64,000 nucleotides of DNA from Candidatus Hydrogenisulfobacillus filiaventi (GTDB lineage: Bacteria; Bacillota; Sulfobacillia; Sulfobacillales; R501): positions 682,001 to 746,000 of the forward strand of contig LR778114.1 in the NCBI GenBank assembly GCA_902809825.1, given 5' to 3'. Positions within the stretch are counted from its first letter, which is position 1; every line of letters starts with the position of its first letter. Both the position numbers and the translations under genes were made by a program. This document shows, piece after piece, positions 26,850-62,136 of this stretch. Under the pieces are notes generated by a model. It searched no databases. It was not told the origin of the DNA and was given only the letters and a program-made list of their open reading frames with translations.

Positions 26850-26867
26850 CGCTTCCTGGCCCGCGCA

Positions 26868-26893
26868 GGCCCGCCGGGTTATCCCGGCGGGCC
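26868..26893 (+). terminator. Hairpin after thiC
   Basis: Perfect GGCCCGCCGGG/CCCGGCGGGCC stem with a short TTAT loop, 19 bases after thiC. The following TTGCTG is T-poor, so termination may be weak; that same TTGCTG serves as the next promoter's -35. Confidence 0.6.
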
Positions 26894-26922
26894 TTGCTGC
26901 GTGGGGGCGGAGGGGGTACCAT
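26894..26922 (+). promoter_or_regulatory. Promoter of the men operon
   Basis: TTGCTG (26894-26899) and TACCAT (26917-26922) spaced 17 bases. A palindromic operator begins ten bases after the -10, covering the predicted start of transcription. Confidence 0.6.
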
Positions 26923-26931
26923 AAGGGGCAG

Positions 26932-26949
26932 TGAATGATCGTTCATTCA
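26932..26949 (+). promoter_or_regulatory. FadR-type (TetR family) operator before menB
   Basis: TGAATGATCGTTCATTCA is an 18-base inverted repeat with perfect seven-base arms. The arms equal those of the Bacillus subtilis FadR consensus (TGAATGA, four bases, TCATTCA). It overlaps the likely transcription start, a repressing position. The cognate regulator is not identified; the TetR gene at 60.9 kb is a candidate only. Confidence 0.75.
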
Positions 26950-26963
26950 GTAGGGGGGAGAGC

Positions 26964-27779
26964 ATGTTCGACTGGCAGCCGATTCGGGAATACCGCGACA
27001 TCCGCTTCGAGCGCCTGGGCGGCATCGCCAAGATCACCATCAACCGCCCTGAGGTGCGCAACGCCTTCCGGCCCCTGACCCTGTTCGAGCTCTCCGATGC
27101 CTTCCACCGGGTCCAGGAGGACCCCACGCTGGGGGTGGCCATCCTGACCGGGGCGGGCGAGAAGGCCTTCTGCTCGGGGGGGGACCAGAAGGTGCGCGGG
27201 GAGGGCGGCTACGTGGATGAGGAAGGCGTGCCCCGCCTCAACGTGCTGGAACTGCAGCGGCAGATCCGGTACCTGCCCAAGCCGGTGATCGCCATGGTGG
27301 CCGGCTACGCCATCGGCGGCGGCAACGTGCTGCAGCTGGTCTGCGATCTCACCATCGCGGCCGATAACGCCGTCTTCGGCCAGACCGGTCCCAAGGTGGG
27401 CAGTTTCGACGCCGGCTACGGCGCGGCCCTGCTGGCGCGGGTTGTGGGCCACAAGAAAGCCCGCGAAATTTGGTACCTCTGCCGGCAGTACTCGGCCCAG
27501 GAGGCGCTGGAGATGGGCCTGGTGAACGCGGTGGTGCCCCTGGCGCGGCTGGAGGAGGAGACGGTGGCCTGGGCCAACGAGATCCTCGCCAAGAGCCCGC
27601 TCGCCATCCGCTTCCTGAAGGCGGCCTTCAACGCCGACACCGACGGTCTGGCCGGTCTGCAGCAGCTGGCGGGGGATGCCACCATGCTCTATTACATGAC
27701 CGACGAGGCCCGGGAGGGGAAGAACGCCTTCCTGGAGAAGCGGGCGCCCGACTTCAGCCGGTTCCCGCGGTTGCCCTGA
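26964..27779 (+). CDS. menB: 1,4-dihydroxy-2-naphthoyl-CoA synthase
   Basis: A 271-residue crotonase-fold enzyme that cyclises o-succinylbenzoyl-CoA. It has [11 protein letters not shown] (oxyanion hole and MenB-typical Gln/Lys), [20 protein letters not shown] and [21 protein letters not shown], a MenB hallmark. It ends with the typical [13 protein letters not shown] 26964 follows GGGGGGAG; an earlier in-frame ATG at 26934 lies inside the operator. First gene of the men operon, 16 bases before menE. Confidence 0.96.
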
Positions 27780-27795: not shown

Positions 27796-29304
27796 GTGGA
27801 AACCGGGATCTGGGACTGGGTGGCCCGGCAGGCCTGGCGCCGGCCCTCGGCGCCGGCGCTGGTGGCCGGGGAGCGGCGCTGGGACTTCCGCACCCTGGAC
27901 CAGGCGGTGGGGCGGGCGGCGGCCCGCCTCCGGCAGGCCGGGCTGGGGCCCGGGGACCGCGTGGCCATGCTGTTGCCGCCGGGGACGGCGGCGGTGGTGC
28001 TGGTGTACGCTTCCCTGCGCCTGGGCACGGCGCTGGTGCCGGTCAACCTCCGCCTGACCGCGGCGGAGGCGGCGGCCATCCTGGCCGATGCGGAACCGGC
28101 AGCCGCGGTGGTGGCGCCGGAGTACCTGCCCCTCCTGGAGGCGGCGGCGCCCGACCTGCCCCGGCTGGTCACGGGGCCGGAGGAGGCCTGGTGGGCGGCG
28201 GCCGCCGGCACGGAGGCGCCCGGGCGGGCACCGCGCGGGGAGGACCTGGCCACCCTGGTCTACACCTCCGGCACCAGCGGCCGGGCCAAAGGGGTGCCGC
28301 TGACGGTGGCCAACCACTGGTGGAACGCCCTCGGCTCCCAGCTGCACTTGGGGCAGTTTCCCGGGGACCGCTGGCTCTTGTGTGTGCCCCTCTATCACGT
28401 GTCGGGGCTGTCCATCCTCTACCGTGCCGCCATCAGCGGGGCGGCGGTGGTGGTGCATCCCCGCTTTGACCCGGCGGCAGTGTGGCGGGACCTGGAGGGG
28501 GAGGGGATCACCCTGCTGTCGGTGGTGCCAACCATGCTGCAGCGTCTGCTGGATGCCCGGCCGGAGGCGCCGGCGCCGGCTTCCCTGCGGGTGGTGCTGC
28601 TGGGCGGGGCCGGAGCCGGCACGGCGCTGGTGGAGGCCGCCCGGGCGCGGGGGTTTCCGGTGCTGCGCACCTACGGGTTGACCGAGACCGGGTCCCAGGC
28701 GGCCACCGAGTTGCCCGGTCAGGAGGGGGAGGGGGCCCGGCCCCTGTTCTTTACCGACCTGGCGGTGCTGGACGAGGCGGGGCGGCCGCTGCCCCCGGGT
28801 TCCATCGGCGAGATCGCGGTCCGGGGCCCCGCCGTCACCGCCGGCTATTGGCGGCGGCCGGAGGAGAACCGGCGGCGCTTCGCCCCCGACGGGTGGCTGC
28901 GGACCGGGGACGTGGGGGTGCTGGCGGCGGACGGCCGGCTCACGGTGCTGGACCGGCGCGCCGACCTGATCATCTCCGGGGGGGAGAACATTGCGCCCGC
29001 CGAGGTGGAGGCGGTATTGAACGCCCATCCTGCCGTGGCCGGGTCGGTGGTGGTGGGCATCCCCGACCCGGAGTGGGGCCAGGTGCCGGTGGCCTGGGCG
29101 GTCCCGGCCCCGGGGACGCCGCCGGTGGCGGCGGAGGAGGTGCTGCAGTTTGCGGCCGGGCGCCTGGCCGGCTACAAGCGGCCGCGGGCCCTGCGCTGGA
29201 CCCCGTCCCTGCCCCTGACCGCCAACGGCAAGCTGCGGCGGGCGGTGGCCCGGGCGGCCTGGTTGGAGGGTGCGGCCACGGCGGAAGGGAGGAACCCGGC
29301 ATGA
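27796..29304 (+). CDS. menE: o-Succinylbenzoate-CoA ligase
   Basis: A 502-residue acyl-adenylate-forming enzyme. The phosphate-binding loop VYTSGTSGRAKGVP, the motif RTYGLTETGSQ, the adenylate motif WLRTGDVG, the hinge LDRRADLIISGGENI and the late catalytic Lys in LTANGKLRRA are visible. It makes OSB-CoA, the MenB substrate. GTG 27796 has GGGAGG eight bases upstream and is preferred over GTG 27787. Its stop overlaps the menA start (ATGA). Confidence 0.93.
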   Translation: METGIWDWVARQAWRRPSAPALVAGERRWDFRTLDQAVGRAAARLRQAGLGPGDRVAMLLPPGTAAVVLVYASLRLGTALVPVNLRLTAAEAAAILADAEPAAAVVAPEYLPLLEAAAPDLPRLVTGPEEAWWAAAAGTEAPGRAPRGEDLATLVYTSGTSGRAKGVPLTVANHWWNALGSQLHLGQFPGDRWLLCVPLYHVSGLSILYRAAISGAAVVVHPRFDPAAVWRDLEGEGITLLSVVPTMLQRLLDARPEAPAPASLRVVLLGGAGAGTALVEAARARGFPVLRTYGLTETGSQAATELPGQEGEGARPLFFTDLAVLDEAGRPLPPGSIGEIAVRGPAVTAGYWRRPEENRRRFAPDGWLRTGDVGVLAADGRLTVLDRRADLIISGGENIAPAEVEAVLNAHPAVAGSVVVGIPDPEWGQVPVAWAVPAPGTPPVAAEEVLQFAAGRLAGYKRPRALRWTPSLPLTANGKLRRAVARAAWLEGAATAEGRNPA

Positions 29305-30176
29305 CCGTCCGGCAATGGTGGGCGCTGGCCCGTCCCGCCACCCTGCCCGCCTCCGTGGTCCCGGTGGCGGTGGGGGCGGCGGTGGCGGCGGAGCGGGGAC
29401 CCTGGTCCTGGCCCCTCAGCCTGGTGATGCTGGTGGTGGCCCTGCTGCTGCAGATCGGGACCAACATGGTCAATGAGTGGGCGGACTTCCACCGGGGGGT
29501 GGATGCCCCCGACTCGGTCGGCATCGCCGGCGTGATCGTGGCCGGCCACCTGTCCCCCGCCACCGTCTGGCGGTGGGCGGTGGGCACCTACGCCCTGGCC
29601 TTCGGCCTGGGCCTGGGCCTGGTGGCGGTGCGGGGCTGGCCCCTGCTGGCCCTGGGTCTGGCCGGCATCGGGGCCGGATTCCTGTACAACGCCGGGCCCC
29701 GGCCCCTCTCTGCCACCCCTTGGGGGGAAGCCCTGGTGTTCGCCATCATGGGGCCGGTGGAGGTGCTGGCCAGCGAGGTGGCGGCCGCCGGCACTATCAG
29801 CCCCGGCGGGTGGGCCGCCTCAGTGGCGGTGGGCTTTTCGGTGGCGGCCATCCTCACCGCCAACAACCTGCGCGACCGGGACAAGGACGGGGCGCGGGGA
29901 CGGCGCACCCTGGCGGTGCTGCTGGGGGATCGGGGCGGGGCCCGGCTGCTGGCGGCGCTGGTGGCCGCCCCCTTCCTGTGGCTGGCCCTGGCGGCCGGCC
30001 TGGGGTGGCTGCCGGTGACCGTCCTGGCCGCCTGGTTGGCGGTGCCGGTGGCGGTGGCGGGGGTGCGCCGCCTGATGCAGCCCGGACCCGGGCGTCGGCG
30101 GGCGGTGGCGGTGGTGGGCCGGATCCATTTGCTGGCCGGCCTGCTGCTGGCCATGGGATTGTTGCTGGCCCGGTAA
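29301..30176 (+). CDS. menA: 1,4-dihydroxy-2-naphthoate polyprenyltransferase
   Basis: A 291-residue UbiA-family membrane enzyme with about eight or nine helices. The first Asp-rich prenyl diphosphate motif appears as NMVNEWADFHRGVDAPDS and the second as NNLRDRDKDGARGRRTL; LARPATLPAS opens the protein. It attaches the isoprenoid tail to DHNA in the membrane. It overlaps the menE stop by four bases. Confidence 0.94.
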   Translation: MTVRQWWALARPATLPASVVPVAVGAAVAAERGPWSWPLSLVMLVVALLLQIGTNMVNEWADFHRGVDAPDSVGIAGVIVAGHLSPATVWRWAVGTYALAFGLGLGLVAVRGWPLLALGLAGIGAGFLYNAGPRPLSATPWGEALVFAIMGPVEVLASEVAAAGTISPGGWAASVAVGFSVAAILTANNLRDRDKDGARGRRTLAVLLGDRGGARLLAALVAAPFLWLALAAGLGWLPVTVLAAWLAVPVAVAGVRRLMQPGPGRRRAVAVVGRIHLLAGLLLAMGLLLAR

Positions 30177-30201: not shown

Positions 30202-31572
30202 ATGAACGGGCAGCGTGAGGCCCTGGAACAGTGGCTGGCGGAAGGGCTGGCGGCCGTCCGCCGCCGGCCCGGCTGGTATGTGGCCGGGACCACGGCGGCC
30301 GCCCTGGGTCTGGAGGGGGAGGACTGGCGGCGGTGGGCCGCCCATCCCGCTGCAGTATGGGCCTGGGAGGAGGCGGACGGCCTGACCGTGGGCCTAGGCC
30401 GCGCCTGGATCCGCCGGGTGCCCTGGGGGCAGGACCCCTGGCCGCTGCTGGCGGCTGCGGTGCGGGAACTGGCGCGCGTCCCCGGGCTGCCCCCGCAGCT
30501 GCGCCTGGGAGGCGGGGTGGCCTTTCAGCCGGCGGCGGCCCCCGGTCCGGACTGGGCAGCCTGGGGGGCCGCCGCCCTGACCCTGCCCCTGTTGACCATT
30601 ACGGCCCGGCGCGGCCAGCCTGCGCGGCTGACCCTGGTGCTGCCCCCCGCCGCTTCCGCTACCGGGCGCCTGGCGGCGCAGGAGCTGCCGCGGCTGGCCC
30701 GGGGACCGCTCCCGGCCGCGCCGGAGGCGGTGCGGGTGGTGGCGGAGTCCGGGACCGGTCCGGCCGCCTGGACGCAGCGGGTGGAGCGGGCCCGGGCTGC
30801 CATCCGGGCCGGGGAACTGGACAAGGTGGTGCTGGCCCGTTCTCGGACCCTGACCTTCGAGCGCGGCCTGGGAGTGGCGGAGGTCTGGGACCGGCTGGGC
30901 GACCGGGCCGGGGAGGCCACCCTCTTCCTGCTAGCGGACCCGGGCGGAGGGCCGGCCCGCTTTGTGGGGGCCAGCCCGGAACTCCTGGTGCGGACGCGGG
31001 CGGGCCGGGTCGAGACCATGTGCGTGGCGGGATCCGCCCCGCCCGAGGCCGACCCCGTGCGGGCGCTGCTGGCCAGCCCCAAGAACCGGGGCGAGCACGC
31101 ATGGGTGCGCGAGCACATCCTGGCGCGGCTGGCGCCCTGGTGCACCGCAGTGGAGGCGCCGGCAGAGCCGGAGGTGGTACGCCGCTCCTACATCCAGCAC
31201 CTGGTCACCCCCGTGCAGGGCCGGCTGCGGCCGGGGGCCGGGCTGCTGGAGGTGGCGGGGGCGCTCCACCCCACCCCGGCGGTGGGCGGGGCGCCGGCGG
31301 AGGCCGCCCTGGCCTGGCTGGCACGCGAGGAAGGCCTGGAACGCGGCTGGTACGCGGGGGCGGTCGGGTACGTGGACCTGGTGGGGGAAGGGGCCTTTTG
31401 GGTGGGACTGCGCTCCGCCCTGCTGCAGGGGCGGCAGGCGGTGCTGTACGCCGGTTGTGGGATTGTGGCCGATTCCGATCCTGCGGCAGAGTACCGGGAG
31501 TCGGGTTGGAAGATGCGGCCGATGCTGGAGGCCCTGGGAACGGAGGCGGCGGCATGGCGGATGCAGGCATGA
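30202..31572 (+). CDS. menF: Isochorismate synthase
   Basis: A 456-residue chorismate-utilising enzyme. The C-terminal catalytic domain has LDKVVLARSRTL, FVGASPELLVRTR, TMCVAGSAPP, KNRGEHAWVREHI and ALHPTPAVGGAP, as in MenF/EntC; ERGWYAGAVGYVD closes it. The N-terminal 190 residues are less conserved. It diverts chorismate to menaquinone. GGAAGGAGG upstream; the stop lies 19 bases inside menD. Confidence 0.93.
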   Translation: MNGQREALEQWLAEGLAAVRRRPGWYVAGTTAAALGLEGEDWRRWAAHPAAVWAWEEADGLTVGLGRAWIRRVPWGQDPWPLLAAAVRELARVPGLPPQLRLGGGVAFQPAAAPGPDWAAWGAAALTLPLLTITARRGQPARLTLVLPPAASATGRLAAQELPRLARGPLPAAPEAVRVVAESGTGPAAWTQRVERARAAIRAGELDKVVLARSRTLTFERGLGVAEVWDRLGDRAGEATLFLLADPGGGPARFVGASPELLVRTRAGRVETMCVAGSAPPEADPVRALLASPKNRGEHAWVREHILARLAPWCTAVEAPAEPEVVRRSYIQHLVTPVQGRLRPGAGLLEVAGALHPTPAVGGAPAEAALAWLAREEGLERGWYAGAVGYVDLVGEGAFWVGLRSALLQGRQAVLYAGCGIVADSDPAAEYRESGWKMRPMLEALGTEAAAWRMQA

Positions 31573-33233
31573 CCCGGGCGGTGGCGGCCCTGGTGGCCGG
31601 CTTGCGGGAAGGCGGGGTGCGGCATGCGGTGGCCTGCCCGGGTTCGCGGTCCACCCCGCTCACCGTGCGCCTCCGGGAGGAGCCGGGCATCCGCCTGTGG
31701 ATGCACCTGGATGAGCGCTCGGCGGCCTTTTTCGCGCTGGGACTGGCCCGTAGCACCCAAAGCCCGGTGGTACTGGTTTCCACCTCCGGCACCGCCGCCG
31801 CCAACTTCCTGCCGGGCGTGGTGGAGGCCTTTCTCAGCCGGGTGCCGCTGGTGGTGCTGACCGCCGACCGCCCGCCCGAACTGCGGGATACGGGGGCGCC
31901 CCAGACCATCGACCAGGTGCGCTTGTACGGCAGCCATGTCAAGTGGTTCCTGGACCTGGCGGTGCCGGACGGCCACACCATCCCACCCCGCTATGCGCGG
32001 CTGACCGGAACCCGGGCCGCCCGCACCGCTGCCATCGGCCCGGCGGGGCCGGTGCACCTCAACGTCCCCCTGCGCGAACCGCTGGTGCCGGATCTGGGCC
32101 CGGTGGAGCCGGCCGGACAGCCGAGCAGCCTGTCGGTCCGGCCCCGGCTGCTCGACCCGTCCCCCCTGGCGGCCCTGGCCGGCCGCCAGGGGGTGGTGGT
32201 GGCGGGGGCGGCCGACCTGGCCCGTTGGGAGCGGGCCTTGCGGACCCTGGCCCGTCGGCTGAACTGGCCGCTGCTGGCGGATCCCCTCTCCAACCTGCGG
32301 GCGGGGGACCCTGAGGCCCCCCTGGCCGCCTATGACGCGGTGGTACGCGCCCCCGCCGCCCGGACGTTGCGGCCGGAGGTGGCGGTGCGGTTCGGTCCGC
32401 CGCCCACCTCCAAGGCCCTCAACACCTTTCTGGAGGGGGCTGAATTGTGGGTCGTGGATGCTGATGGCTGGCGGGAGCCGTCCCTGGCCGGGGCGCAGGT
32501 GCTGTGGGCGGAGGACCTCTCCCCGCTGGAAGACTGGGACCCCGGCCGTCCGGGCCCCCGCGGCTGGTTGGAGGCCTGGCGGACTGCGGAGGCGGGGGCG
32601 CGGGCAGCCATGGCCGCCTACCTGCATCAGGAGGCGCCCCCGGCCTTTGAAGGGCTCCTCTATCACCGCCTGGGACGGCGCCTGGACCCGGCGGCGCCGG
32701 TGCTGGCGGGCAACAGCATGCCGGTGCGGGACCTCGACAGCTTCTATTGGGGATCCGACCCGCCGCTGCGCCTGTGGGGCAACCGCGGGGCCAACGGCAT
32801 CGACGGCGTGGTTTCCACCGCCCTCGGCCTGGCGGCGGGGGCCGGACGGGCGGTGGCCATCCTGGGGGACCTCTCCTTTTATCACGACATGAACGGTCTC
32901 CTGGCCGCCAAATGGCACCGCCTGCAGGGGGCGGTGGTGGTGGTCAACAATGATGCCGGTGGCATCTTCCGCTACCTGCCGCAGGCTGCGCTGCCGGGTG
33001 ACCTGTACCGGGAGCTCTTCGACACCCCGCACGGCATCGATTTCTCCGGCGTCGCCACCCTCTACGGCCTCCCCTACCGGCGGGCGGCCACGGTGGGCGA
33101 GGTCGAGGAGGCGCTGGCGCGGGCGGAGGTCGAGGGCGGGTTGTGGGTGATCGACTGGCGGGTGCTGGATCCGGCCGAGAGCGCGGCGGTGCACCGCACG
33201 CTCTGGCGGCGGGTGGAGGAGCGGTTGGGGTGA
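31554..33233 (+). CDS. menD: SEPHCHC synthase
   Basis: A 559-residue ThDP-dependent enzyme adding a succinyl semialdehyde unit from 2-oxoglutarate to isochorismate. N-terminal VACPGSRSTPLTV and the catalytic Glu region WMHLDERSAAFFALGLA are MenD hallmarks. The ThDP motif spans ILGDLSFYHDMNGLLAAK to VVVVNNDAGGIF. ATG 31554 has GGAGG upstream and overlaps menF by 19 bases; a very long upstream extension in this frame is menF shadow. Confidence 0.95.
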   Translation: MADAGMTRAVAALVAGLREGGVRHAVACPGSRSTPLTVRLREEPGIRLWMHLDERSAAFFALGLARSTQSPVVLVSTSGTAAANFLPGVVEAFLSRVPLVVLTADRPPELRDTGAPQTIDQVRLYGSHVKWFLDLAVPDGHTIPPRYARLTGTRAARTAAIGPAGPVHLNVPLREPLVPDLGPVEPAGQPSSLSVRPRLLDPSPLAALAGRQGVVVAGAADLARWERALRTLARRLNWPLLADPLSNLRAGDPEAPLAAYDAVVRAPAARTLRPEVAVRFGPPPTSKALNTFLEGAELWVVDADGWREPSLAGAQVLWAEDLSPLEDWDPGRPGPRGWLEAWRTAEAGARAAMAAYLHQEAPPAFEGLLYHRLGRRLDPAAPVLAGNSMPVRDLDSFYWGSDPPLRLWGNRGANGIDGVVSTALGLAAGAGRAVAILGDLSFYHDMNGLLAAKWHRLQGAVVVVNNDAGGIFRYLPQAALPGDLYRELFDTPHGIDFSGVATLYGLPYRRAATVGEVEEALARAEVEGGLWVIDWRVLDPAESAAVHRTLWRRVEERLG

Positions 33234-34057
33234 GGGCCTGGCTGGAACGGGAGGCCGGTTTACGCCTGGCCTACCAGGTCTGGGGCCGCGAGGACGGGGT
33301 GCCGGTGCTCTGCCTGCACGGATTCACCGGTTCGGGCACCACCTGGCGGGGGGTGTGGGACCCGTCCTGGCCGGCCCGCTGCTGGGCCCCGGACCTGTGG
33401 GGGCATGGGGCGAGCACGGTGCCGGCCGACCCCGCCCGGTTGAGCCTGGAGGCGACGGCCGCCGACCTGGCCGCCCTGCTGGATGCCGGCGGTCTGGCGC
33501 GCGTCCTGGTGGCGGGCTATTCCATGGGCGGTCGTGTCGCCCTCGAGTTTGCCTGCCGGTATCCGGAGCGGGTGGCGGGCCTGCTGCTGGAAAGCGCCTC
33601 GCCGGGCATCGCCGACCCGGCGGAGCGGGCCCGGCGGGCCGCGGCCGACGATGCCCTCGCGGATCGGATCGAGCGGGAGGGTATGGACTGGTTTACCGCT
33701 TTCTGGGAGGCGCTGCCCCTCTTCGCTTCCCACCGGCGCCTCCCGCCCGAGGTGCAGGCCGCCCTGCACCGCTTGCGCCGGAGCCAGTCCCCGGCCGGGC
33801 TGGCTCAGAGCCTGCGCGGGGCGGGGACCGGCCGGCAGTCCTCCTGGTGGGACGCCCTGCCGACCATTCAGGTGCCGGTGGTGCTGGTGACCGGCAGCCT
33901 GGACCCCAAGTTCACCGCCATTGCCCGCGCCATGGCCGCCCGCCTGCCGCACGTGCGCCATTGGCAGTGCGCCGGGGCCGGGCATACCCCCCACCTGGAG
34001 CGGCCCGACTGCTTCCGGGCCGCCTTAGCCGCCCTCCTGGCCGCAACCCGGGTCTAA
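33230..34057 (+). CDS. menH: SHCHC synthase (alpha/beta hydrolase)
   Basis: A 275-residue alpha/beta-hydrolase with the oxyanion segment LCLHGFTGSG, nucleophile Ser in VAGYSMGGRVAL, an acid in TGSLDPKF and the catalytic His in GAGHTPHLE. It eliminates pyruvate from SEPHCHC. GTG 33230 overlaps the menD stop by four bases. Last gene of menBEAFDH; menC (OSB synthase) is absent here and must lie elsewhere. Confidence 0.93.
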   Translation: MRAWLEREAGLRLAYQVWGREDGVPVLCLHGFTGSGTTWRGVWDPSWPARCWAPDLWGHGASTVPADPARLSLEATAADLAALLDAGGLARVLVAGYSMGGRVALEFACRYPERVAGLLLESASPGIADPAERARRAAADDALADRIEREGMDWFTAFWEALPLFASHRRLPPEVQAALHRLRRSQSPAGLAQSLRGAGTGRQSSWWDALPTIQVPVVLVTGSLDPKFTAIARAMAARLPHVRHWQCAGAGHTPHLERPDCFRAALAALLAATRV

Positions 34058-34387: not shown

Positions 34388-34412
34388 GGAAAACGTTTTC
34401 CTAAACGTTTTC
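34388..34412 (+). promoter_or_regulatory. Tandem LacI-family operators
   Basis: GGAAAACGTTTTCC (34388-34401) is a perfect 14-base palindrome with the central CG of LacI/CcpA-type sites. A second AAACGTTTTC (34403-34412) follows at once. They sit between the promoter and the regulator gene, so autoregulation is likely. Confidence 0.85.
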
Positions 34413-34429
34413 TTATGGGGAGGGCCGCG

Positions 34430-35443
34430 ATGGGCGCTACACTCAAGGATGTCGCGCGTCGGGCGGGCGTTTCCCTGGCCACTGTCTCCCGGGTCGTGAA
34501 CCATGTTGGAGGCGTCAGCCCGGCCATTGTGGAGCGGGTGGAACGGGCCCTGGCCGAACTGGACTACCGGCCGAATGAAATCGCCCGGGGACTGCGCGCC
34601 GGGTCCACCCACATGGTGGCGGCGATCGTGTCCGATGTCACGAACCCGTTTTTCATGGAAGTGATCCGGGGCCTGGAAGACGGCCTGCGGTCGCAAGGGT
34701 ACACCGTCCTCATCGCCAGCACCGACGAGGACCTGACCAAGGAGGAGGAATACTGCCGGGTCCTGCACCGGCGGCAGATGGACGGCATCGTGCTGGCGTC
34801 TTCCGGGCAGACCTATGCCGGGCTATCCCACCTGGTGGGGAAGACGCCGGTGGTGCTGGTCGACCGGCTGGTGGAGGGGGCGCCCTATGATGCCGTCCTG
34901 GACGACAACCGCCAGGGGGTCGACCTGCTGGTGGATTACCTGGTGGCGCGCGGCCACCGGCACATCGGGATGGTGGCGGGGAACCAGGCCTTCACCTCCG
35001 GCCAGGAACGGCTGGCGGCCTTCCGGGAGGCCCTCGGGCGTCACGGGCTGCCGGCGGAGCCGGATTGGATCCCGGTGGGGCCGTTTACGGTGGCCTTCGG
35101 CCGGGAAGCCGCCCGCCGCCTGCTCGCCCTGTCCCGGCGGCCCACCGCCATGGTGGCGGCCAACAACCGTCTTGCCCTTGGCCTCCTCACCGGCCTGCTG
35201 GAGGCCGGCCTGCAGTTGCCTGAGGAGATGACCATCGTGTCCTACGGGGACCTTTCCCACGCCGACCTGTTCCGGGTTCCGATTACGGTGGTGCGGCAAT
35301 CCGGCTATGCCATCGGCCAGGAGGCGGCCGCCCGTATCCTGGACCGCATCCGTGGGGACGGGCGGCCGCCGCTGATCCGGCGCATGCAGCTCGAGCTGCT
35401 GGACCGCATGCCGCCAGGCCCGGCCGGCCGGGTGCAGCCATGA
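34430..35443 (+). CDS. LacI-family transcriptional regulator of a sugar ABC operon
   Basis: A 337-residue regulator. The N-terminal helix-turn-helix and hinge helix (TLKDVARRAGVSLATVSRVVN ... NEIARGLRAGS) are followed by a periplasmic-binding-like core (MVAAIVSDVTNPFFMEVIRGLEDGL, MDGIVLASS, VVLVDRLV, FTSGQERLAAFREAL). It should bind a sugar-type ligand and repress its own operon through the tandem operators upstream. ATG 34430 follows GGGGAGGG. The ABC genes begin 29 bases after its stop. Confidence 0.95.
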   Translation: MGATLKDVARRAGVSLATVSRVVNHVGGVSPAIVERVERALAELDYRPNEIARGLRAGSTHMVAAIVSDVTNPFFMEVIRGLEDGLRSQGYTVLIASTDEDLTKEEEYCRVLHRRQMDGIVLASSGQTYAGLSHLVGKTPVVLVDRLVEGAPYDAVLDDNRQGVDLLVDYLVARGHRHIGMVAGNQAFTSGQERLAAFREALGRHGLPAEPDWIPVGPFTVAFGREAARRLLALSRRPTAMVAANNRLALGLLTGLLEAGLQLPEEMTIVSYGDLSHADLFRVPITVVRQSGYAIGQEAAARILDRIRGDGRPPLIRRMQLELLDRMPPGPAGRVQP

Positions 35444-60000: not shown

Positions 60001-60097
60001 GCTGGCGGTGGGCGGGCGGAAGGAGGCACAGGGCCTGGACATCCGGTTCCTGGGGCCCTGGCAGCCGGCTCCGCAGGAGGGCCCGTCCGGTCCTTGA
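57014..60097 (+). CDS. dnaE2: Error-prone DNA polymerase DnaE2 (ImuC)
   Basis: A 1027-residue C-family polymerase. The PHP domain has HLHVHSAFSFLDGAS and LTDHHGVSG. The polymerase core includes RGSAADSVTAY and the catalytic acidic motif PDIDIDFD (Asp387, Asp389), then GMHLGGLVVS, FQLESPAQR, VVLFQEQVI and ASYGFNEAHAA. An OB-fold C-terminus follows. Length and lack of beta-clamp-rich tail fit DnaE2. It synthesises across damage with ImuB under SOS control. GGAGG 8 bases before ATG 57014. Confidence 0.95.
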   Translation: MAGIGVHLHVHSAFSFLDGASLPETLVQTAAERGIGVLALTDHHGVSGLVRFLMAARAAGIKGIAGATVELAGYGRLVLLVPEAAAYARLTALLTAAHERSPRRQPAVDWPLLEAWGAGLVALTGGRDGAVVQTWLRAGPAAAEALVRRLQGVFGPANLFLELAPNRLPGDRRIFAGLAELGERTGTPLVAAGDVHYARKQDFPTYDLLTCIRTGTRLEEAHPARRLNAENDLKPWREWEELLGDRPQVLAATRELGERLQPVDGVLLDRRRAPRFAVPAGTSADALLARLAEAGARRRYGHPLPPGLRERLHRELAVIRELGFADYFLVVWDVARFARRQGIRFAGRGSAADSVTAYCLGITGVDAWRRNLLFERFLSRERAETPDIDIDFDARYRDRVADYVRRRYGEAYVAQVATYQTYRARLAVREVGKAMGFPPAELEALARSLPEGALEPLEARWEAVPELRALAEPERLRALLRWAARLEGLPRHLGMHLGGLVVSADPLDTVSPRQPSAKGPRIIQFDKRDVETLGLLKLDLLSLRIFTAVEETERVIRRRRPGFRYDHLPLEDAATYARLRAGEGIGVFQLESPAQRALARRLQPDRWEDLVASLALIRPGPIKGNMVDPFIARRRGEEPVTYPHPALEPILAKTYGVVLFQEQVIAIASALAGFTPGEADLLRRVMTHGRSREEMERLGVAFRRKAEARGVAADVAAAVFAQIAGYASYGFNEAHAAAFAETAYRTAYLWEHFPRDYLIGLLNAEPLGYYPIDVLLVEGRRRGIRILPLDINRSGVGAEPEGPGGIRIGLAFLKGWGRETAERVVAARPPGGYRHPREVERRAGIDRGQLLALVQAGGFDSLSRDRRAWIAALAGENPLGLAFAAPGGSGAPDAAEEVYWDYRHLGFGQHRHLLALYRNRLRQEGYLSAAEAAALEEGRWVRMVAMAVRPHRPPTRSGRVVVFVSLLDESGLLEARLSEAGYQRYGRWLFGDRPPVLAVGGRKEAQGLDIRFLGPWQPAPQEGPSGP

Positions 60098-60150
60098 ATA
60101 TACAATCATCACATCATAGGATTACCTTGAATTATAAATCACAGCGCCGG
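60096..60150 (+). promoter_or_regulatory. AT-rich promoter region of the tauE-tetR operon
   Basis: TTGAAT (60096-60101), 17-base spacer, TAGGAT (60119-60124) make a promoter. TTGAAT recurs at 60128 beside TATAAA, so an operator or second promoter may overlap. The patch stands out for low G+C. Confidence 0.5.
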
Positions 60151-60186
60151 CGGAGAACGGACCGGGTGTGCACGGGGGTGGCGGCG

Positions 60187-60924
60187 ATGCAGTGGCTCGC
60201 GGCAGGCCTCATCTTCCTGGTTTCCGGCTTCTTTGCCATGCTGGGGATGGGCGGGGGGATGCTGCACGTCCCCATTCTGATCTGGCTCGGGTATGATTTG
60301 AAGCAGCAGGCGCAACCGATCGGGATCCTGCTCAACGGGCTTACCGGGTTGGTGGCACTGGTAACCTACGCCCGTCACCGGCTGGTGGACTGGAAGGGCG
60401 GCCTGCCGATGGCGGGCGCGGCGCTGGTTCTGGCCCCGGCAGGGGCGCTCACGGCCCGGCTGCTGCCCGATCGCTGGCTGGTGGGCCTGTTCGCGGGGGT
60501 GGTGCTGGCGGCCGCCATCCGGACCTTGCGCAGTGCCGCCGATCCGGATCCGGACCACCGGCCGCCGCTGGGGAGACGGCTGCTGTTGGGCAGCCTGGGC
60601 GCGGGACTGGCCGCCTTCCTGGGGGGCATGCTGGGCCTGGGTGGCGGCACCTTCGTGAGCCCGCTGCTGATGTGGATGGGGTACCCCACCAAGGAGGCGG
60701 TGGCCACCACCGCCTATATTGTGACGTTTTCGAGCTTTTCCGGTTTTGTGGGCCGGATGGGTTACCTCAGCGCCTCCTGGAGCCTGGTGCTGTTGCTGGC
60801 GCTGGCGGCGGTGGCCGCCGCGGCTGCGGGCAGCCATCTCATGGCCACCCGTGCCAAGCCGCATTGGGTCAAGGTGGCCTACAGCATGCTGTTGATGGGA
60901 GTGGGGGTCAAGCTGCTATGGTAG
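60187..60924 (+). CDS. TauE/SafE family sulfite or organosulfur exporter
   Basis: A 245-residue membrane protein with seven or eight helices. It has the duplicated TauE motif: FFAMLGMGGGMLHVPILIWLGYDLKQQAQPIG and, in the second half, FLGGMLGLGGGTFVSPLLMWMGYPTKEAVATTA. The family exports sulfite, sulfoacetate or similar anions. ATG 60187 follows GGGGGTGG. It overlaps the TetR gene by seven bases, so its expression is probably under that regulator. Confidence 0.9.
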   Translation: MQWLAAGLIFLVSGFFAMLGMGGGMLHVPILIWLGYDLKQQAQPIGILLNGLTGLVALVTYARHRLVDWKGGLPMAGAALVLAPAGALTARLLPDRWLVGLFAGVVLAAAIRTLRSAADPDPDHRPPLGRRLLLGSLGAGLAAFLGGMLGLGGGTFVSPLLMWMGYPTKEAVATTAYIVTFSSFSGFVGRMGYLSASWSLVLLLALAAVAAAAAGSHLMATRAKPHWVKVAYSMLLMGVGVKLLW

Positions 60925-61577
60925 GGGAGTCCGCAGGAGGCAGCCCCGGCAAGCGGGCGGTACGGGGGCCGGCGGAGGACGAGAAACCGGCCGTCCGCGA
61001 CCGCATCCTGGCCGGGGCACGGCAGATGTTCGCCCGGAAGGGCTTCCGGGCCTCGGTCAAGGACATTGCCCAAGCCGCAGGGCTGGTGGCGCCCAGCCTC
61101 ATCTTCTGGTACTTCGAGGACAAGGAGAGCCTGCTGCTGGAGGCCACCACCACCATGTCCCCTCTGCATCAGGTTACCCGCGTTCTGGATGAGGCGGGGG
61201 AGGCGGACGTCCTCACCATGCTGGCCCGCGTAGCCGACCGCTACCTGGAGGTCTATCAGGACTCCCTGAACCGGCGGATCCTACTGCAGCTGGTGGGATC
61301 CGCTCCGCAGCAGCCGCGGGTGCAGGGGCTGCTGCGCCGGCAGCTCACCGAAGCCACGGTCGGTCGCATGGCGGAGCTGATGCGGCGGGGCCAGGCGGAG
61401 GGCAGTGTGCGGCGCGACCTGGAGCCGGAGTGGCTGGCGCAAAGCTTCCTGGGCGTCCTGTATGCCCTGGTGACGCGGTGGGAGGTGGATGAGGGACTGC
61501 CCTGGGACGCGCCGGCCATCCGGCGGCAACTGCTGGAGCTGGTTCAGGGCCCGGGTTTCCGCCCGCAACACCCTTGA
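60918..61577 (+). CDS. TetR-family transcriptional regulator
   Basis: A 219-residue regulator. The N-terminal helix-turn-helix (RDRILAGARQMFARKGFRASVKDIAQAAGLVAPSLIFWYFEDKESLLLEAT) is typical TetR; the C-terminal ligand domain is helical. It has an extra 25-residue N-terminal tail. Co-transcribed with the TauE-like exporter. Its operator may lie in the AT-rich region at 60.1 kb; whether it also binds the FadR-type site before menB is unknown. Confidence 0.92.
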   Translation: MVGESAGGSPGKRAVRGPAEDEKPAVRDRILAGARQMFARKGFRASVKDIAQAAGLVAPSLIFWYFEDKESLLLEATTTMSPLHQVTRVLDEAGEADVLTMLARVADRYLEVYQDSLNRRILLQLVGSAPQQPRVQGLLRRQLTEATVGRMAELMRRGQAEGSVRRDLEPEWLAQSFLGVLYALVTRWEVDEGLPWDAPAIRRQLLELVQGPGFRPQHP

Positions 61578-61633: not shown

Positions 61634-61709
61634 GGGGATGTAGCTCAGTTGGGAGAGCGCGTGAATGGCATTCACGAGGTCAGGGGTTCGACTCCCCTCA
61701 TCTCCACCA
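61634..61709 (+). tRNA. tRNA-Ala (anticodon GGC)
   Basis: Acceptor GGGGATG/CATCTCC, anticodon arm CGTGA-ATGGCAT-TCACG with GGC at 61667-61669, T-arm GGGGTTCGACTCCCC, encoded CCA. Confidence 0.93.
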
Positions 61710-61719
61710 TTTTATATGC

Positions 61720-61795
61720 GACCCCATGGTCTAGAGGCCTAGGACATCACCCTTTCAAGGTGGTAACCCGGGTTCGAATCCCGGTGGGGTCACCA
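61720..61795 (+). tRNA. tRNA-Glu (anticodon TTC)
   Basis: Acceptor GACCCCA/TGGGGTC, anticodon loop CTTTCAA with TTC at 61754-61756, T-arm CCGGGTTCGAATCCCGG, encoded CCA. Confidence 0.95.
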
Positions 61796-61799
61796 CCAC

Positions 61800-61875
61800 G
61801 GGCCATTAGCTCAGTTGGTAGAGCGTCCGCCTTTTAAGCGGAGTGTCGAAGGTTCGAGCCCTTCATGGCCCACCA
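61800..61875 (+). tRNA. tRNA-Lys (anticodon TTT)
   Basis: Acceptor GGGCCAT/ATGGCCC, anticodon loop CTTTTAA with TTT at 61833-61835, encoded CCA. Confidence 0.95.
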
Positions 61876-61886
61876 GTATCGGACAT

Positions 61887-61962
61887 AGGCCAGTAGCTCT
61901 AACGGTAGAGCGGCGGACTCCAAATCCGCGGGTTGGGGGTTCGAATCCCTCCTGGCCTGCCA
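61887..61962 (+). tRNA. tRNA-Trp (anticodon CCA)
   Basis: Acceptor AGGCCAG/CTGGCCT with G73, anticodon arm GCGGA-CTCCAAA-TCCGC with CCA at 61920-61922, encoded CCA. Confidence 0.94.
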
Positions 61963-61978
61963 TTTTTTTAGGCTTTGG

Positions 61979-62053
<75 letters not shown>

Positions 62054-62060
62054 GCTTTTG

Positions 62061-62136
62061 GGGGCTTTAGCTCAGCTGGGAGAGCGCCTGCTTTGCAAGC
62101 AGGAGGTCAGCGGTTCGATCCCGCTAAGCTCCACCA
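62061..62136 (+). tRNA. tRNA-Ala (anticodon TGC)
   Basis: Acceptor GGGGCTT/AAGCTCC, anticodon arm CCTGC-TTTGCAA-GCAGG with TGC at 62094-62096, encoded CCA. Confidence 0.95.

Follow-up and report, generated by a model that had tools for sequence, protein, structure and literature searches.

The question raised by this locus is which regulator, if any, acts on a perfect inverted repeat in front of the menaquinone genes. The window (the whole 64,000-nucleotide stretch of DNA that was analysed) contains an exact copy of the repeat, with TGAATGA and TCATTCA as its arms and TCGT as the spacer. A preliminary description had placed it ahead of a menBEAFDH operon and compared it with the operator of FadR, the fatty-acid degradation regulator of Bacillus. 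The operon is as described there, with menB starting at 26964 and followed by menE, menA, menF, menD and menH, and the arms are indeed equal to those of the Bacillus FadR box, which we take to be TGAATGA-n4-TCATTCA. The interval originally given starts at the putative -35 box, and the palindrome is its last 18 bp (Table 1).

The putative menB promoter has a 17-nt spacer between its -35 and -10 boxes; downstream of it come the palindrome, a Shine-Dalgarno-like sequence and the ATG of menB, in that order. This promoter is weak, with 7 of the 12 consensus bases, and the promoter scan made no call for TTGCTG-17-TACCAT; its position supports it, since strong promoters occupy the corresponding place in relatives. 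The hairpin that follows thiC is probably the thiC terminator, separating thiC from men. Elsewhere in the window, GAAAACGTTTTCCTAAACGTTTTC (34389-34412) lies immediately 5' of a LacI-family gene (34415-35443) and is a probable LacI-type autoregulatory operator.

Table 1. Features of the men promoter region and operon, in window coordinates.
Feature	Position	Strand	Remarks
GC-rich strong hairpin AGGCCCGCCGGGTTATCCCGGCGGGCCT	26867..26894	+	after thiC
Putative -35 box TTGCTG	26894..26899	+	weak match; placed by spacing and analogy with relatives
Putative -10 box TACCAT	26917..26922	+	weak match
Putative operator TGAATGATCGTTCATTCA	26932..26949	.	7-bp arms, 4-bp spacer; sole exact genome site
14-bp core TGAA-N6-TTCA, TGAATGATCGTTCA	26932..26945	.	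aligns with order-mates' sites
menB, 1,4-dihydroxy-2-naphthoyl-CoA synthase	26964..27779	+	first gene; TIGR01929 436 bits, NF005637 494 bits, both above cut-off
menE, o-succinylbenzoate-CoA ligase	27796..29304	+	TIGR01923 343.9 bits, above cut-off; start 27787 or 27796
menA, DHNA prenyltransferase	29301..30176	+	TIGR00751 104 bits, above cut-off
menF, isochorismate synthase	30202..31572	+	TIGR00543 287 bits, above cut-off
menD, SEPHCHC synthase	31569..33233	+	TIGR00173 414 bits, above cut-off; start uncertain, 31554 or 31569
menH-like alpha/beta hydrolase	33230..34057	+	last gene; homologs 37-52% identical, matching place in relatives' men operons

The palindrome stands in DNA of 71.6% G+C, and the whole 2.57-Mb genome holds one exact copy (n=1), where base composition predicts 1.4e-4 exact copies of both arms (~4e-6 in the window). 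A genome scan allowing up to 2 mismatches gave one copy with 2 mismatches as the next-best match; at up to 1 mismatch no second site was found. Shuffles of the window gave 0.23 palindrome copies at up to 3 mismatches. The other places in this genome with TGAA-N6-TTCA are a CRISPR-like array, two positions in coding sequence and two intergenic ones; a CRISPR-like array with the repeat GTTTCAATTCCTCATAGGTAGGCTA was seen at C1 ~74,260 (L142). A perfect palindrome of the TGAA-N6-TTCA type, TTGAATATATATTCAA, is located at C1:155184-155197 (L143:1501-1514), about 20 bp 5' of an FmdE-family gene that is followed by a TauE-like gene; it may be a second target, whether of the TetR protein discussed below or of a different one.

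The comparison of men operon starts covered 37 order-mates and one class-mate. The layout of the window, menB-menE-menA-menF-menD-menH, is also that of f1 and f2, and G016 is likewise menB-first; most of f3 has menF-menD-menH-menB-menE-menA. TGAA-N6-TTCA is found at the first-gene promoter in both the menB-first and the menF-first layout, and the order-mate sites that align with the 14-bp core include TGAACGGACGTTCA, the men site of G016, and TGAACCGCGGTTCA in G003. In G000 the 18-bp register is centred 2 bp away from the 14-bp register of the relatives. The f2 genomes carry TGAACCGCGGTTCA and variants of it, frequently as tandem pairs, and in the six of them with TGAACCNNGGTTCA that sequence was confined to men in a genome-wide scan. 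Much of f3 has TGAACACGCATTCA, which overlaps the menF start codon. Coding constraint was considered as the cause of this conservation and rejected, since the site is kept under both layouts and is untranslated in f1 and f2 but in f3 overlaps the start of menF. In the relatives, good promoters lie directly ahead of the site or overlap it, for instance TTGACG-17-GAAAAT, which runs into the site, and TTGATT-17-TATTAT; judged from the sequences, this placement is that of a repressor operator. The putative operator of L058, L059, L061, L066 and others in f3 contains the menF start codon, approximately at the expected transcription start, which suggests leaderless menF messages in these genomes.

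Three TetR proteins scoring over the Pfam cut-off are encoded in the genome. The gene for the candidate repressor (~C1:968753-969385; L094:1633-2262:+; 210 aa) lies ~260 kb from men, and its orthologs in order-mates are 44-55% identical to it. Among the order-mates with the men operon start in hand, TGAA-N6-TTCA was found at that start in 25/25 of those with an ortholog and in 0/12 of those without (Fisher p 5e-10). On the Men-protein tree the split is a single change, so the p-value overstates the association, the 37 genomes not being independent cases, and further cases outside the order matter. The other two TetR proteins (C1:1776084-1776698 and window 60918-61577) were rejected as partners of the site because they are absent from all f2, which has it; both are also missing from further genomes that keep it. 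The second of these genes follows a TauE/SafE sulfite-exporter gene in the window (60094-61577), and the AT-rich sequences TTGAATATAC and TTGAATTATA, located just upstream (~60096-60140), resemble the L143 FmdE-TauE palindrome; just 3' of the tetR gene about six tRNA genes are densely clustered by eye (61640-62135).

No site was visible at the candidate's own promoter, and autoregulation was discarded as a general feature, since among 29 upstream regions of tetR orthologs a site was found in G028 only. In that genome (L231, 908-5426) a divergent gene of the ornithine-cyclodeaminase family is separated from tetR by a stretch with two tandem sites, and downstream of tetR come acyl-CoA dehydrogenase genes. 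G028 and G014 have kept the TetR ortholog and show no close MenB match. Menaquinone genes are thus not the target in every genome, which implies at least one redeployment of the regulator or else an incomplete assembly. In a wider genome scan, members of the close TetR clade turned up almost exclusively in Sulfobacillus and in related MAGs of the Bacillota; homologs at a greater distance, from Actinobacteria and other phyla, are often near fadD/menE-like CoA ligase genes.

Beyond the order, the pairing of such a TetR protein with the site at menaquinone genes was seen in cis in G050, in trans in G052 and with a distant TetR homolog in G047. Class-mate G050 has a homologous tetR with the promoter TTGACA-17-TAAAAT and, next to it, TGAATATGTATTCA between the -10 box and the start codon of the tetR itself. 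This tetR heads a run of genes with mqnL (TIGR03701 647 bits, cut-off 496), an MqnP-like prenyltransferase gene and ubiX, and since an MqnA/MqnD-family gene (PF02621) is also present, G050 uses the futalosine route. In class-mate G052, TGAACCTGAGTTCA is found at the mqnL promoter and the homologous tetR is on another contig. The TetR proteins of both are sister to the men TetR clade (85/87 support). In G047, TGAATGGTCATTCA lies at the menF start, and a 36% identical TetR is encoded on the same contig. G042 and G044 have a more distant TetR, and their mqnL promoters carry a different palindrome, ACTGACGCGTCGGTC or GACCGACGCGTCAGTC (loci L239 in G042, L247 and L238 in G044), which in G044 is present, in its GACCGACGCGTCAGTC form, at the tetR promoter too. 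The recognition helix of these TetR proteins differs, and a shifted operator specificity is possible.

The candidate has a TetR_N domain (PF00440, 52.7 bits, cut-off 24), matched by all 29 orthologs, and its AlphaFold2 model (pLDDT 88.8) has nine helices in the all-helical two-domain TetR fold. Foldseek returned TetR regulators as the top matches to the model, with FasR the best (6o6n, E 3.4e-07), and a profile search against solved structures put Bacillus FadR first, over the full length, at 105 bits. The candidate belongs in a FadR/FasR-like branch with acyl-CoA-sensing relatives, but as a clade of its own. Its helix-turn-helix is close to that of FadR, which fits the common TGAA half-site, and the palindromic operator at or near the target promoter that is typical of the TetR family is found here by association. 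Cys40 and Cys55, in or beside the DNA-binding domain, are near-invariant in the men TetRs (alignment A1); a role as a quinone redox switch was set aside as a lead, the pair not being present in all orthologs (G030 is without both).

From fold and homology, an acyl-CoA-type or other long hydrophobic ligand is plausible. The men and futalosine pathways are common only in their end part, and the futalosine route has neither OSB-CoA nor DHNA-CoA. A ligand common to both would therefore be likelier than an intermediate of one route, and a prenylated naphthoquinone (such as menaquinone), another isoprenoid or a long-chain acyl-CoA would be more likely than a men intermediate.

The site is real, common across the order and paired with one repressor gene, which argues for dedicated control and against a fatty-acid regulon. 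We consider it probable that a dedicated, pathway-specific repressor of the TetR family governs menaquinone synthesis and has the palindrome as its operator. We infer its binding, repression and ligand as follows. The repressor would be encoded in trans by the candidate gene; its dimer would occupy TGAA-N6-TTCA at the menBEAFDH transcription start, block RNA polymerase and keep the operon off, and a small ligand would release it.

The reading from which the work started, that menaquinone synthesis is one branch of a true FadR regulon with several operators under acyl-CoA-responsive control of fatty-acid degradation, has more in its favour than the shared arms. Class-mates G048, G050 and G052 have true FadRs (227-242 bits), which adjoin exact or one-mismatch FadR boxes (in G048, for example, TGAATGAACGTTCATTCA precedes fadD), and the candidate TetR is itself FadR-like. 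We nevertheless regard it as very unlikely. The preliminary description had held that a lack of further sites together with a lack of a FadR homologue would refute it, and this is what was found: further TGAATGA-n4-TCATTCA sites are missing from the genome within 1 mismatch, and no TetR protein reaches the NCBIfam FadR cut-off (NF053878, 200 bits), the best scoring 61.8. The only crotonase-family match in the genome is MenB, where order-mates have up to 25 such matches; acyl-CoA dehydrogenases are likewise represented by a single match, and the candidate TetR groups with the mqn-linked TetRs in a clade (85/87) separate from that of the FadRs (99/98). The suspicion of a FadR-type TetR acting on men was therefore partly supported. 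The motif was fairly read, a TetR with FadR and FasR as its closest solved relatives does exist, and the broader idea of a FadR-like TetR acting on men is backed by strong comparative evidence, but the protein is not FadR, and the FadR regulon is absent.

A narrower form of the preferred reading, in which the dedicated men repressor has a long-chain acyl-CoA as effector and menaquinone follows membrane-lipid supply, appears possible, if somewhat doubtful. The nearest relatives in fold and sequence, FadR and the FasR-C20-CoA complex, speak for it, as do the CoA ligase genes near distant homologs and the acyl-CoA dehydrogenases that accompany the G028 ortholog. Against it, there is little fatty-acid degradation machinery in the genome, the C-terminal half gives weak scores with the FadR C-terminal Pfam family (6/29 members), and the invariant Arg75 of the men TetRs aligns with a methionine in B. 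halodurans FadR. Palindromes of this kind are used by many regulators, and the site might be bound by one of the other two TetR proteins or by a regulator of another family. This is improbable, given the absence of both those proteins from site-keeping genomes and the need for a regulator of any other family to have the same distribution as the site. Lastly, the repeat, which could fold and is probably located in the 5' untranslated region, might be a chance palindrome or an mRNA hairpin of the menB leader that no protein binds. The expected number of exact copies per genome speaks against chance, and neither chance nor a hairpin is easily reconciled with a core conserved at men starts in 25 relatives. 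Some of the relatives' sites continue directly from the -10 box, and hence would hardly be transcribed, and tandem copies occur too; we find this explanation scarcely credible.

Compared with known systems, the candidate shares with the FadRs of Bacillus subtilis and B. halodurans the TetR fold, the TGAATGA arms and an operator at the promoter. It differs from them in falling far below the equivalog cut-off and in its separate clade, and its predicted target is one menaquinone operon, whereas Bacillus FadR targets fatty-acid degradation. FasR of Mycobacterium tuberculosis, a TetR protein with a C20-CoA ligand, is its best structural match but is only 22% identical, and the candidate scores 55 bits against an NCBIfam FasR cut-off of 330; FasR is moreover named an activator, whereas the site layout here suggests repression. 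Azoarcus MbdR offers a parallel in layout: it represses a single pathway operon from a palindrome that extends across the transcription start, and its release by the aromatic 3-methylbenzoyl-CoA is a precedent for an aromatic CoA ester in that role (PMC4424350). The MbdR structure (4uds) matches the candidate in sequence, if distantly, but MbdR controls a catabolic pathway and its operator is ATAC-N10-GTAT (PMC4424350).

How bacteria set their quinone level is described as poorly understood, the known controls being enzyme feedback and global regulators (PMC12421875). For menaquinone synthesis, DHNA is described as an inhibitor of MenD (PMC9835592), and men promoters are described as being under CRP or CcpA control (PMC12421875, PMC9835592). 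Like the predicted repressor these all limit or tune the quinone level; unlike it, they act by enzyme feedback or as global regulators. A dedicated TetR repressor of men or mqn genes was not found in the open-access papers searched, and dedicated TetR control of respiratory-quinone synthesis is apparently undescribed.

Tentatively, and at somewhat less than even chances, the pairs in the class-mates can be taken further: FadR/FasR-related TetR repressors may serve menaquinone supply class-wide, kept through the switch between two unrelated routes, the classical men route in the order and the late futalosine mqnL route in class-mates, and sense a product common to both, eg menaquinone or a prenyl compound. 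If this is true, there would be end-product feedback, at the level of transcription, on the pool of respiratory quinone. A pathway-specific repressor with a defined operator and gene, on two routes, would allow direct tests of quinone-pool control at the transcriptional level, and would also show how the scaffold of an acyl-CoA sensor can be transferred to respiration genes.
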